Positions 5,927-11,144 of a stretch of DNA of 64,000 bases are shown in pieces. The first letter of the stretch is position 1, and every line of letters starts with the position of its first letter. The position numbers and the translations under genes were made by a program. The stretch comes from Pseudodesulfovibrio sp. JC047. GTDB taxonomy: Bacteria > Desulfobacterota > Desulfovibrionia > Desulfovibrionales > Desulfovibrionaceae. The notes below the pieces were generated by a model. It did no database searches. It was given only the letters and a program-made list of their open reading frames with translations, and was not told where the DNA came from. Location of the stretch: assembly GCF_010468615.1 (NCBI RefSeq), contig NZ_WUEH01000022.1:1-64000 (forward strand), given 5' to 3'.

Positions 5927-6856
5927 ATGAAAAATTTGACCATCGCCACCCGAGGCAGTGAACTGGCTCTCTGGCAGGCGGACCACATCAAGGACCGACT
6001 CGAAGCCAAATACCCCGACCTGACGGTGAATTTGCTGAAAATCAAGACCAAGGGTGACAAAATTCTCGATGTGCCGTTGGCAAAGGTCGGCGGCAAAGGT
6101 CTCTTCGTCAAGGAAATCGAAGAAGCCCTGCTGGACGGTCGCGCTCAATTGGCAGTCCATTCAATGAAAGACGTTCCCACCAAATTGCCGGACGGCCTTG
6201 AAGTCGGCATCATTACGGAACGCGGTGCTTCCACCGACACCCTGCTTTCTGTCAAGTATCAGGGACTTGAAGGCCTGCCCAAAGGTGCCGTGGTCGGCAC
6301 TTCCAGCCTACGCCGTCAATCCCAGCTCGCCGCGCTGCGGTCCGATCTCAAGATCGAATCATTGCGAGGCAACCTCAACACCCGTATCCAGAAATTGCTG
6401 GACGGCAACTTCGACGCCATTGTGGTCGCCACAGCCGGACTGGAACGCCTCGGCATTTCCGCGCCCAAACGGGAAGAACTCGGCCCGCCCGAATTTCTGC
6501 CCGCAGTGGCACAGGGCGCGCTCGGCATTGAATACCGGTCCGACAACGCCGAACTGATCGAGATGCTTCAGTTCCTCGACCATGCCCCCACCAAGGTGCA
6601 GGTCATGGCGGAACGGGGCTTTCTGACTGGTCTCGACGGCGGATGTCAGGTTCCCATCGCCGCATGGTCAGTGCTCACAGACGACTCGGTTCACCTGACC
6701 GGTTTCGTAGCCGACGTGGACGGCTCTCGTCCCATTCGTCTTGAAATCGAAGGCAAGGCCGCTGATGCCTGGGACCTCGGCATGGAATTGGCCGACCAGG
6801 TCTGCAAAGCCGGTGGCAAAGAAATCCTCGACGAAGTATATAATCGCGAATCATAG
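5927..6856 (+). CDS. hemC: Porphobilinogen deaminase (hydroxymethylbilane synthase)
   Basis: A 309-residue enzyme that condenses four porphobilinogens into hydroxymethylbilane in tetrapyrrole (heme, siroheme, cobalamin) synthesis. The N-terminus [20 protein letters not shown], the substrate loop VHSMKDVPT, and the cofactor-carrying Cys in [12 protein letters not shown] are all present. Length is standard. This fits the heavy tetrapyrrole demand of a sulfate reducer, and cobT lies nearby on the other strand. A short T-run after the gene (6890-6898) lacks a strong stem. Confidence 0.95.
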
Positions 6857-8436: not shown

Positions 8437-8592
8437 ACTCTATTTCCCCAATGTATTTTTTTGTAAAAAAGAGCGATAGCCTGTCCAATCTCAGCTGTAA
8501 ATACCCAAATTCCGCCATTGCCTGACTTTTTGAACCATGCTAGGAAATTGACGTCTGTTTATAGACTCTTTCACCAATTCTTGCACAAAATA

Positions 8593-9423
8593 ATGAAAAG
8601 AAAACTCTGTATTGTTCATGCCAACTGTCAGGGCGAGCCACTCATTCAACGGCTCATGACCTGCGCTGATTTTTCCGACACCTTTGAATGCAGACTTTTC
8701 ACCAATTATATTCACGAACCCATTCCATCGGATCTTCTGAACACCTGTTCCCTCTTTCTCTATCAGTATCTCTCTGCCGACTGGGGGAATCTGGCCTCGC
8801 ACACGCTGCTTTCACACCTACCTGACACGGCCCGGTCACTGTGCATTCCCAACATGTTTTTCACCGGCTATTGGCCCACCTGGTCAAGCAGGCCGGGATT
8901 TGATTATCGCTGCGACTATCTGGACGCGTTCGTGGACCTCGGCCTTCCGGCAGAAGAAACCATGATTCTGGCCCTGCATTCAGACATTGCGGCAAAACAT
9001 GACCTCCCAACGCGGTTGACCGAGACCTTCATGCAGGAACGGACCCGAGAGCAACACACGCCCATTCGATATACCGACATCATCGAAAAACGATTCCGGG
9101 AGGTCCGATTGTTCAATACCATCAACCACCCCGGTCCACTGCTCATGAACCACGCGGCCAAAGGTGTTCTGACTGAACTGGGATTCACTCCGCCCCCGGA
9201 CGCAACATTGGAAGCCCTGGGTGACCCGTTCCCGGAATTCCATCTCCCGATGAATCCCCGGGTCGCCGAAACATTCGGGTTGTCCTTTGGCGGTCCAGAC
9301 CACATGTATCCCGTGTATGGCCAGACAATGAACTACGGCCACTGGGTGGCACACTACATCAGTGCCAGACAGGCAAATATCACGGATTTCATCGGCTTTT
9401 TGCTGGCGCTTCACGAAGCATAA
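8593..9423 (+). CDS. WcbI-like polysaccharide biosynthesis putative acetyltransferase
   Basis: A protein of 276 residues beginning MKRKLCIVHANCQGEPL, matching the WcbI family (capsule-linked putative acetyltransferase; CoA binding has been reported for a Burkholderia homologue). An upstream in-frame TTG at 8518 would add 25 residues, but the family motif normally sits at the extreme N-terminus, so ATG 8593 is preferred. The ribosome binding site is weak. Other visible blocks are NMFFTGYWPTW and FNTINHPGPLLMNHAAK. The gene is not inside a capsule cluster; its neighbours are cobT and the 163-bp repeats. Donor and acceptor cannot be inferred. Confidence 0.7.
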   Translation: MKRKLCIVHANCQGEPLIQRLMTCADFSDTFECRLFTNYIHEPIPSDLLNTCSLFLYQYLSADWGNLASHTLLSHLPDTARSLCIPNMFFTGYWPTWSSRPGFDYRCDYLDAFVDLGLPAEETMILALHSDIAAKHDLPTRLTETFMQERTREQHTPIRYTDIIEKRFREVRLFNTINHPGPLLMNHAAKGVLTELGFTPPPDATLEALGDPFPEFHLPMNPRVAETFGLSFGGPDHMYPVYGQTMNYGHWVAHYISARQANITDFIGFLLALHEA

Positions 9424-10008
9424 GATCATGGAAAAGAAGTCGAACGATCGACGCACACGACTTCATCCCCACACCAATCTCTTCGAGCCATCAAAACCAG
9501 CAACGATGCAATCGGCCAACAGTTTCGCCCCGCAAAGACGCTTTACCCCATCACGACACAACGACATGAAGCCGAAGCTTCGAGAAGTGGTCGAGTGGGA
9601 GGCGCAAGGGGGATTCGCCCCGCAGCGGACTCTTCAGTCCGTGAGGACGCGAATTCACCGCAGCAACGATGCAATCGGCCAATGGTTTCGCCCCGCAAAG
9701 ACGCTTTACCCCATCACGACACAACCACATGAAGCCGAAGCTTCGAGAAGTGGTCGAGTGGGAGGCGCAAGGAGCATTCGCCCCGCAGCGGACTCTTCAG
9801 TCCGTGAGGACGTGAATTCACCGCAGCAACGATGCAATCGGCCAATGATTTCGCCCCGCAAAGACGCTTTACCCCATCACGACACAACCACATGAAGCCG
9901 AAGCTTCGAGAAGTGGTCGAGTGGGAGGCGCAAGGGGGATTCGCCCCGCAGCGTACTCTTCAGTACGTGAGGACGCGAATTCACCGCAGCAACGATGCAA
10001 TCGGCCGC
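9424..10008. other. Non-coding convergent intergenic region occupied by repeats
   Basis: This region between two convergent genes holds no credible gene. From 9501 it consists of three tandem 163-bp units and the first 17 bases of a fourth, which runs into the last codons of the reverse YkgJ-like gene. Open frames crossing it exist only because the repeats lack stops. The unit length is not a multiple of three, so consecutive units are read in different frames. Confidence 0.85.
9501..10006. repeat. 163-bp tandem direct repeat, 3 copies plus partial fourth
   Basis: Units begin CAACGATGCAATCGGCC at 9501, 9664, 9827 and 9990 (the last truncated). Spacing is exactly 163 bases each time and copies are about 95 percent identical by eye. 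Each unit contains the palindrome CGAAGCTTCG, two copies of TTCGCCCCGCA, and a hairpin CGGACT-CTTC-AGTCCG (9626-9641, 9789-9804, 9952-9967). In the third copy both arms change together to CGTACT/AGTACG, keeping the pairing. Other differences are scattered. Candidate roles include an RNA/DNA structural element, a recombination or protein-binding array, or a repeat family of the genome. Confidence 0.9.
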
Positions 10009-10611
10009 TTATCGAAGCTTCGGCGGGCCAAGGACGATCATTTCGGCAATAGTGTGGTCCACTTTGGGGAGTTGTTGGAGCTTTTTCCCGACAAATTGCA
10101 TCTCCAGCATGACCAGATTCTTGTACAGAGGGGTGCGATCCACAAAAGGCGGAGTCTCCATGTCCTTGGTAAGATCCTGACATCGATAACACCCCGGGAA
10201 ATGGATGGCCTGCCCGGTGGGCTTGACGAGCATGTTGGGAACGCCGTGCATCCGGCAAATCATGAGCCGATGCTTGTACAATCCACATATGCCCTGCTTC
10301 TCATCGATATTCAGGGGACACATGATGTGCGGCCGCTGGCCCTGAGACAGTGCTGCCTGCGCCTGCTCCACATAGGCCTGAGCCTTGTCCTTGATGGACT
10401 CCAGACGATCGGCTGGGAGCTGCTTCAACCCCTCCCACATGTAGGCCCATTCCACATAGGTGTGGTGCTGGAAAAACGAGAGACAACAGTTGTCCCCACA
10501 CCCGTCACACCGCATTCCAATCGGCTCGGCCACATCATTGTACCGATCAACCATTGTATCATAGATGGCAGCCAGTTTGCGAAAAGCCGCCTTGGGGGTC
10601 AATTTATTCAT
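10009..10611 (-). CDS. YkgJ-like Cys-cluster (zinc/iron-chelating) protein
   Basis: A 200-residue protein of the YkgJ/CxxCxxCC family, presumed to bind zinc or an iron cluster. Cysteine groups: CDGCGDNCC near residues 34-42, CPLNIDEKQGICGLY, MICRMHG and CYRC. The spacing fits the family; function is not established. It is last in the operon pyrR / shikimate-kinase-like / ykgJ and overlaps the preceding gene by 4 bases. Its last codons (GPPKLR) abut the truncated fourth repeat unit, which suggests that the repeat array was inserted at or expanded up to its stop codon. Confidence 0.8.
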   Translation of the reverse strand: MNKLTPKAAFRKLAAIYDTMVDRYNDVAEPIGMRCDGCGDNCCLSFFQHHTYVEWAYMWEGLKQLPADRLESIKDKAQAYVEQAQAALSQGQRPHIMCPLNIDEKQGICGLYKHRLMICRMHGVPNMLVKPTGQAIHFPGCYRCQDLTKDMETPPFVDRTPLYKNLVMLEMQFVGKKLQQLPKVDHTIAEMIVLGPPKLR

Positions 10612-11144
10612 GCAAAATCCACGTGTTCGAGAATGAGAGCCACACTTTCTTCCGGAGTATTCTCAACGGTGCTGACCACAATGTCAGCGGCGGCTCGATA
10701 CAAAGGCTCCCGTTCATGATACAGGTCGCGCATGGTCGTGCCCGGACTGATGGCAAGTCCCCGATTTTCAGCATCGCCCACGCGCTTGACAAAAGTGGCT
10801 TCGTCAATGTCGAGCAAAACCACTGGACCAAGCTTCTTGAGCTGCGCCATGGCCTTGGGACCATAGATGACACTTCCACCCGTTGAAATGACCGTGCGGG
10901 TCAAATTCAATTCAGAAACAAGCTGTTCTTCAATATGCAGGAATTCATCCAGACCGTGGGTATCAAGAAGCACCTGCAACGGCATGGCATAATATGATTC
11001 AAGATACCGATCCGTGTCGAGCTGTCCCCAACCAAGACGCTTGGCCAACAACGAGCCGAGCGTAGACTTCCCGGCAGAGGCCATGCCCACCAGCGTGATG
11101 CACGGCAACGGAATCGGGTCTCGCTCCAAGGGAGTGAATGCCAT
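10608..11144 (-). CDS. Shikimate kinase-like P-loop kinase, substrate uncertain
   Basis: A 178-residue nucleoside-monophosphate-kinase fold protein. Walker A is GMASAGKST (residues 20-28), the DTD motif follows (LDTDRYLES), and the lid and C-terminal motif REPLYRAAADIVV is normal. However, the shikimate-binding FR of AroK is FL here (DEFLHIEEQ), the GGG motif is reduced to TGGS, and RPLL is RGLA. These residues contact shikimate in known enzymes, so another hydroxyl substrate is likely. A homoserine-kinase role has been suggested for AroK-like proteins of Desulfovibrio (recalled, unverified). It is packed between pyrR (2-base gap) and ykgJ (4-base overlap). Confidence 0.75.
   Translation of the reverse strand: MAFTPLERDPIPLPCITLVGMASAGKSTLGSLLAKRLGWGQLDTDRYLESYYAMPLQVLLDTHGLDEFLHIEEQLVSELNLTRTVISTGGSVIYGPKAMAQLKKLGPVVLLDIDEATFVKRVGDAENRGLAISPGTTMRDLYHEREPLYRAAADIVVSTVENTPEESVALILEHVDFA

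Follow-up and report, generated by a model that had tools for sequence, protein, structure and literature searches.

A tandem array behind a ykgJ-like gene of Pseudodesulfovibrio sp. JC047 is probably made of copies of a dispersed 126-bp palindromic element

Background

Do the tandem repeats behind a ykgJ-like gene of Pseudodesulfovibrio sp. JC047 contain a hairpin that is maintained as a structure, or are they a local duplication without wider meaning? This question arises from a sequence-only reading of the window, i.e. the whole stretch of 64,000 nucleotides analyzed here (contig NZ_WUEH01000022.1, positions 1 to 64,000). It described 163-bp repeats with a small stem that changes in a paired manner between copies, and proposed either selection of this hairpin for its RNA or DNA structure or its conversion by template switching.

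Results and discussion

A tandem array between two convergent genes

Tandem Repeats Finder detects a single tandem array in the window (9498-10006; period 163, 3.1 copies, 96% matches), the units of which are in register with a spacing of 163 bp. A WcbI-family gene on the plus strand (8518-9423) adjoins the array region, and a YkgJ-like gene (ykgJ; 10009-10611; CxxCxxCC motif; 22.5 bits, slightly below the Pfam cut-off of 23) lies on the minus strand; the intergenic region is thus convergent, and these gene calls and repeat positions bear out the arrangement reported before. Each unit comprises a left arm, an element core and a spacer of about 50 bp and contains, also as reported, the palindrome CGAAGCTTCG and the internally repeated TTCGCCCCGCA. 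All element copies lie on the plus strand. The first (9572-9684, left arm and core 9585-9684; 91.2 bits with the covariance model described below) and the second (9735-9847, left arm and core 9748-9847; 84.6 bits) are without the gene-side arm. Only the third (9898-10023, core 9911-10010; 105.7 bits) is complete and folds as an imperfect palindrome of 126 bp with arms at 9898-9910 and 10011-10023, the right one of which overlaps the last codons of ykgJ and its stop codon (10009-10011). What had been taken for a truncated fourth unit is instead this right arm, with the ykgJ stop codon inside. A partial right-arm sequence, CAGCAACGATGCAATCGGCC, is found at the distal end of the array (9498-9517, plus strand), and this word is repeated at every duplication joint. 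Beyond the three cores, the window contains no further convincing match to the covariance model. The duplicates in the window, which lack the gene-side arm, are best explained as decaying copies.

The stems CGGACT/AGTCCG in copies 1 and 2 and CGTACT/AGTACG in copy 3 are present, and the paired change between them is real (T 9954 and A 9965 in copy 3, where copy 1 has G 9628 and C 9639 and copy 2 has G 9791 and C 9802), but its direction is the reverse of the one proposed. In the aligned elements of the family, the terminal stem has the consensus CGTA..TACG, so copy 3 is ancestral and the G:C pair of copies 1 and 2 is derived. The statement that there are few other changes also needs qualification: the three copies differ at nine columns, two of which form the paired change and four of which lie outside the core stems, but the remaining three are unpaired stem changes in copy 2. 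Support from within the array therefore consists of one paired double change, which is common to copies 1 and 2 and perhaps represents a single event; moreover, the 163-nt unit alone does not fold better than predicted by shuffled sequences (z -1.32 for the plus strand, -1.54 for the minus strand). The array by itself is weak evidence for selection.

Two long open reading frames on the plus strand cross the array (9362-9895 and 9832-10719, the second antisense to ykgJ) and look spurious. A coding repeat was rejected, as 163 is not a multiple of three and the stems covary. In copies 1 and 2, AGTCCGTGAGGACG can be read as a hammerhead-like motif, but this reading was rejected as well; the motif is broken in copy 3 and in most of the aligned relatives, and there is no Rfam match.

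Anatomy of the 126-bp element

BLAST searches with the whole 163-bp unit retrieved the window site as the only match in its own genome and DNA matches in nine relatives out of 60, each of them a member of the same genus; in G006, G017, G034 and G026 the match is located directly behind ykgJ. Read on the strand of ykgJ, the repeat pairs with the final codons of this gene, which results in a hairpin of about 126 nt including the ykgJ stop codon. The small hairpin noted before is thus only a part of the structure, which extends over the whole 126 bp and into the ykgJ codons. Eleven elements could be aligned over a core of 99 to 100 nt, for which RNAalifold gives 35 pairs, 12 of them changed on both sides, and a covariance model was built from this alignment. 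From 141 model hits in 78 chosen loci, 116 distinct elements from 50 genomes were kept; this excluded the hits in eight ykgJ or tRNA loci, second hits to a place present in two loci, opposite-strand hits to one palindrome and hits shorter than about 90 nt.

Beyond the core, the arms of these 116 elements pair in register in 50-84% of the copies over 13 positions, compared with 26-55% when arms were swapped between copies, and position 14 is at background (32% versus 27% swapped). With thirteen paired arm positions on either side of the core, the element measures 126 bp, which fits the spacing of 123-126 bp often seen between tandem copies. The length of the element is nearly fixed, and its ends show a weak consensus of about GCAGGCTGTTSAR..YTCAACAGCCTGC. 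Two internal loops are nearly invariant, one around AGGCGCAAG / GCAGCAACG and one around CCGNNGCGTA / TACGYGAGG, and the stems between and outside of them vary in sequence and stay paired. These conserved loops set the canonical orientation, which corresponds to the plus strand in the window.

The stems covary throughout the family

Covariation was analyzed in 41 non-redundant elements (40 of 49 candidate sequences and the window copy, the nine left out being mostly the most distant ones), and since the candidates had been pre-filtered for at least 7 of 12 paired arm positions, a filter that does not affect the in-register pairing of the 116 elements above, the figures for the arms lean upward: 95.6% of 1954 paired cells pair, compared with 72.4% in shuffled and at most 39.6% in slid controls, 39 of 48 pairs are changed on both sides (28.4 shuffled), double-change cells number 458 (115 shuffled), and covariation scores 0.649, compared with 0.195 in shuffled and no more than 0.143 in slid controls. 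A minimum spanning tree was drawn for 59 intact copies out of the 116, a selection that inflates double changes; on it there are 128 transitional and 110 transversional double Watson-Crick changes (110/238) and 48 other double changes, next to 82 single changes involving G.T, 13 involving A.C and 41 others. Transversional double changes cannot proceed via G.T, which points to fold-back templating or to strong selection. Close tandem neighbours show mostly single changes.

The proposal that the hairpin is selected or template-switched is supported for the family, in which covariation is very strong, but it had thin evidence in the array from which it was drawn: the conclusion of a maintained structure was right, and the array alone was insufficient to show it. 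The three modes of maintenance that can be considered, as RNA, as single-stranded DNA or by arm-templated correction, are supported as a set.

Distribution and dispersal

Of the 36 genomes of the genus, 32 are positive with the covariance model at E <= 0.01, each having 2 to at least 113 matches (scoring covered 113 candidates per genome), and the other four have none. Pseudodesulfovibrio sp. JC047 itself has nine matches, six of them beyond the window array. With E <= 1e-4 and stricter filters, 117 of 247 genomes (29 of 51 genera) in a sample of the order and 35 of 297 genomes (31 of 199 genera) in a sample of the phylum are positive, the two draws overlapping. Matching records include JACCQI010000004.1 (a Desulfovibrionaceae MAG) and, with a partial match, JADGEX010000001.1 (Pseudodesulfovibrio sp. 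OB3). Rfam yielded a single chance match for the window stretch (E 1.7, 17 bits compared with a cut-off of 70) and nothing but a tRNA for six element-bearing loci, and a blastn search of plasmids with the element from the ykgJ site returned a single short match (34 nt, E 0.3). No description of the element was found in the open-licence literature without supplements, and an earlier description elsewhere is possible. In IMG/VR, 56 contigs fit a loose pattern, one of which (L203) passed the covariance model; this viral or proviral contig record, IMGVR_UViG_2524614816_000001, contains one element at 6434-6535 with 70.9 bits.

Copies at two unrelated places in the JC047 genome, on C3 and C21, share 97% identity over 153 bp, and one pair at unrelated loci of G004 shares 96% over 154 bp. 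In both pairs the element is preceded on the left by an additional mini-hairpin of 25 nt, which is present at 5 of 73 sites in total. Filled as well as empty sites at ykgJ and in G004, described below, add to the evidence for dispersal. Long flanking direct repeats likewise occur at 5 of 73 sites, and four of them begin exactly at the right border. There is no excess of short target duplications among the 73 sites (border 4-, 5- and 6-mers 18, 8 and 1 compared with 16.8, 4.5 and 1.1 expected; no 8-mers), and TA is found in both end windows at only 7 of them. As some sites and elements are orthologous or in tandem, these counts do not represent independent events.

The view that the array is a neutral local duplication without wider meaning can draw on the whole-unit BLAST result, on the single paired change next to the unpaired ones in copy 2, and on the fact that multiplication to three copies may itself be neutral, yet for the element it is refuted by the six further copies in the same genome, by occupation of the same site in other species and by covariation throughout the family. 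The comparison with further copies and relatives that the sequence-only reading had proposed as its own test thus did not overturn it, given conservation at the ykgJ site, nine matches in the genome, spread across the order and covariation.

Palindromic, dispersed and strand-polar sequences with a replichore bias, as seen here in two complete genomes, recall REPINs moved by a RAYT (Y1 HUH) transposase, and REPINs too show compensatory changes (PMC3116915). A further likeness lies in a doublet-like palindromic hairpin with a variable yet paired middle. In contrast to REPINs, however, the conserved parts of the element are internal loops and not REPs at the ends, and a link to a Y1 transposase is missing: no mobility enzyme was found, and among the 36 genomes of the genus Y1 transposases do not track the element, as 17 genomes encode Y1_Tnp (PF01797), 18 genomes with 8 to at least 113 matches lack it, and three with Y1_Tnp lack the element. 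We therefore disfavour a REPIN-type origin and consider it very improbable.

Strand polarity and position at stop codons

The canonical strand folds better than its complement in 40 of 41 elements with RNA parameters and in all 41 with DNA parameters. Sixty-six sites had 450 bp of flank on both sides; they include orthologues (four ykgJ sites, three of one genus, and the pairs G004/G015 and G024/G035). At 36 of these sites, a minus-strand open reading frame of at least 100 amino acids ends between -16 and +5 nt from the right border, compared with two mirror cases at the left border, and 30 have no stop codon in this range of the right border. Thirty of the 36 abutting reading frames were scanned, of which 29 match Pfam, and the families are unrelated (PhoU, MoaC, HisA-like, ribosomal protein L19 and ABC transporters among them). 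Six of the remaining sites adjoin the 5' end of a tRNA gene (tRNA-Gln in G001, G002, G024, G027 and G035, tRNA-Pro in G000), at distances from a 1-nt overlap to a 3-nt gap (ARAGORN, loci scanned). Because the reading frames end at the right border on the minus strand, the strand that folds better is the one from which the abutting protein gene is transcribed. Orientation also follows the replichore in two complete genomes: 26 of 35 copies in G004 and 52 of 60 in G023 have their gene-sense strand as the leading strand, with replichore halves assigned by eye (20 GC-skew samples for each genome, positive skew taken as the leading strand); about 0.44-0.51 of the genes used for comparison lie on this strand according to a crude gene caller, which in a check on the window placed a plus-strand reading frame where cobT lies.

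Could the element act in cis as a structured RNA at gene 3' ends, influencing mRNA stability or processing or blocking antisense read-through, as has been proposed for ERIC, with dispersal being secondary? Its fixed polarity relative to the gene and its conserved internal loops are consistent with such a role, and so is the predominance of G.T over A.C cells (309 versus 50 in the core, 36 versus 11 in the arms, which lie outside the model). But a small number of fixed columns account for much of the core excess, and the variable inner stem appears roughly balanced between G.T and A.C, as read from a list that shows eight types per column. Among 30 multi-copy loci (two of which, L036 and L054, are pairs about 250 bp apart), the copy next to the stop codon is top-scoring in 20, tied in two and not so in eight, compared with 12.5 expected, yet this result is confounded by the loss of gene-side arms in duplicates. 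In addition, the better-folding strand is the template strand, so the transcript of the abutting gene itself has the worse fold, the element adjoins the 5' end of tRNAs, and a scan of the window array detected no promoter-like site. Taken together, we consider a function as structured RNA rather unlikely, though it is the alternative that fares best.

Less likely still is an ordinary bidirectional terminator that has grown long. Its supporters could point to the location at gene 3' ends and to T runs in the arms of some copies outside the window; within the window elements, a terminator scan detected none, and the one weak terminator-like site for ykgJ (9429-9452, minus strand; stem 9452-9439 and tail) lies past the array and compares with 0.9 sites expected in shuffles. 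Occupied sites at ykgJ and in G004, however, have ordinary terminators beyond or beside the element. One G004 site shows a terminator hairpin on each side of the element, with empty sites of relatives having one at the same place, and at another the element sits exactly between the stop codon and the native terminator. A nearly fixed length and internal loops are also untypical of terminators, and elements next to tRNA 5' ends do not fit such a function.

Arms that mirror the host gene

All 36 genomes of the genus contain ykgJ, and among 30 ykgJ loci inspected by eye an intact element is present at the gene end in six (G000, G006, G017, G022, G026 and G034). The element seems degraded in three (G024, G025 and G035), and 20 show none within the 230 nt read; for G033 the motif gave no reading. 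The coding arm is CCGAAGCTTCGA in one species and CCTCGGCTCCGA in another, a difference that amounts to Lys -> Arg and one silent change, and in each species the non-coding distal arm carries the matching complement. The arms at tRNA-Gln sites similarly differ between species and match within each. This pattern suggests fold-back synthesis in which one arm serves as the template for the other. Downstream of ykgJ in G025 (L112), short arms, CCGAAGCTCCG / CGGAGCTTCGG, are left and the core is gone, as judged by eye; their complementarity has survived a change compared with related species.

Relationship to known elements

ERIC/IRU/RU-1, NEMIS, RUP and YPAL are bacterial MITEs, i.e. dispersed palindromes of small size (about 100-200 bp) that do not code for proteins and form long stem-loops, as does the element described here. 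ERIC measure 127 bp, are sometimes fused to gene 3' ends and have orientation-dependent effects on mRNA (PMC2229807, PMC2759123). The element shares with ERIC and MITEs a small size, dispersal, a long stem-loop and terminal inverted repeats (13-position arms with a weak end consensus), but not TA termini or a TA or short target duplication, and it differs in sequence, in its fixed polarity over stop codons and in arms that mirror host codons. Membership in ERIC proper is not claimed. On the best reading it is a new family, kin in type to ERIC and MITEs, with no TA ends, with stop-codon polarity and with codon-mirroring arms. Palindromic multicopy intergenic families of related bacteria, the 'multicopy nucleotide sequences' of Geobacter and Pelobacter, are presented in PMC2700814 and PMC3543383, and the element may or may not be identical with one of them.

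The attC sites of integrons are imperfect palindromes of variable sequence just behind a stop codon, of which one strand is preferred for folding. The element resembles them in these features only: the RYYYAAC and GTTRRRY boxes were found at the two ends of 0 of 73 sites in either orientation, and its neighbours are unrelated chromosomal genes and not cassettes, so an attC identity was rejected.

Origin and maintenance

On balance, we think the array is probably built from three tandem copies of a dispersed palindromic element of 126 bp that is non-autonomous, ERIC/MITE-like in kind and new in sequence. Such an element would spread as a mobile element, with its pairing being kept by selection on those copies that are retained or propagate. 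The window element that lies over the ykgJ stop codon would have been duplicated locally to give three copies. Fold-back (template-switch) synthesis from one arm to the other, to which the pattern of changes points, would account for a distal arm that mirrors the final codons of the host gene, and templated repair of this kind probably helps to keep the arms paired. One-step template switching has been proposed to create stems and multi-base compensatory changes (PMC8794818); the hairpins described there belong to RNA genes, whereas in the present case the hairpin is a dispersed DNA element and the partner arm is the end of a coding sequence.

A more far-reaching interpretation, which we put forward only tentatively, is that the family represents a new class: a mobile hairpin based on single-stranded DNA that would insert with fixed polarity exactly at stop codons or tRNA 5' ends, preferably of leading-strand genes, and whose distal arm would be built by fold-back as an inverted copy of host codons, the outer stem then co-evolving with the host. 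Sulfate-reducing bacteria and their relatives in any case gain a large set of structured repeats, up to at least 113 per genome, that tie coding sequence to a non-coding arm. As the coding arm is constrained by the protein, these sites allow a direct test between selection via intermediates and one-step template switching. For genome annotation it is relevant that the element, which is absent from Rfam, sets or overlaps the C-terminus of several genes.

Two smaller sequences were observed in association with the element. The 25-nt mini-hairpin on its left occurs at L109 and L110 (G004), L092 and L093 (G000) and L062 (G419, of another family) and has a conserved ACAAAG loop, e.g. CAGATTGATTACAAAGTCCAATCTG; its stem varies among sites with pairing kept. 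Upstream of tRNA-Gln, L147 (G006) and L159 (G032) share a nearly identical insert of about 55 nt, beginning with CGCCTAAGGTGTAAGGTCTTCTAAGCGAAC, at the same point of the right internal loop, which is perhaps another small mobile sequence that targets the element.
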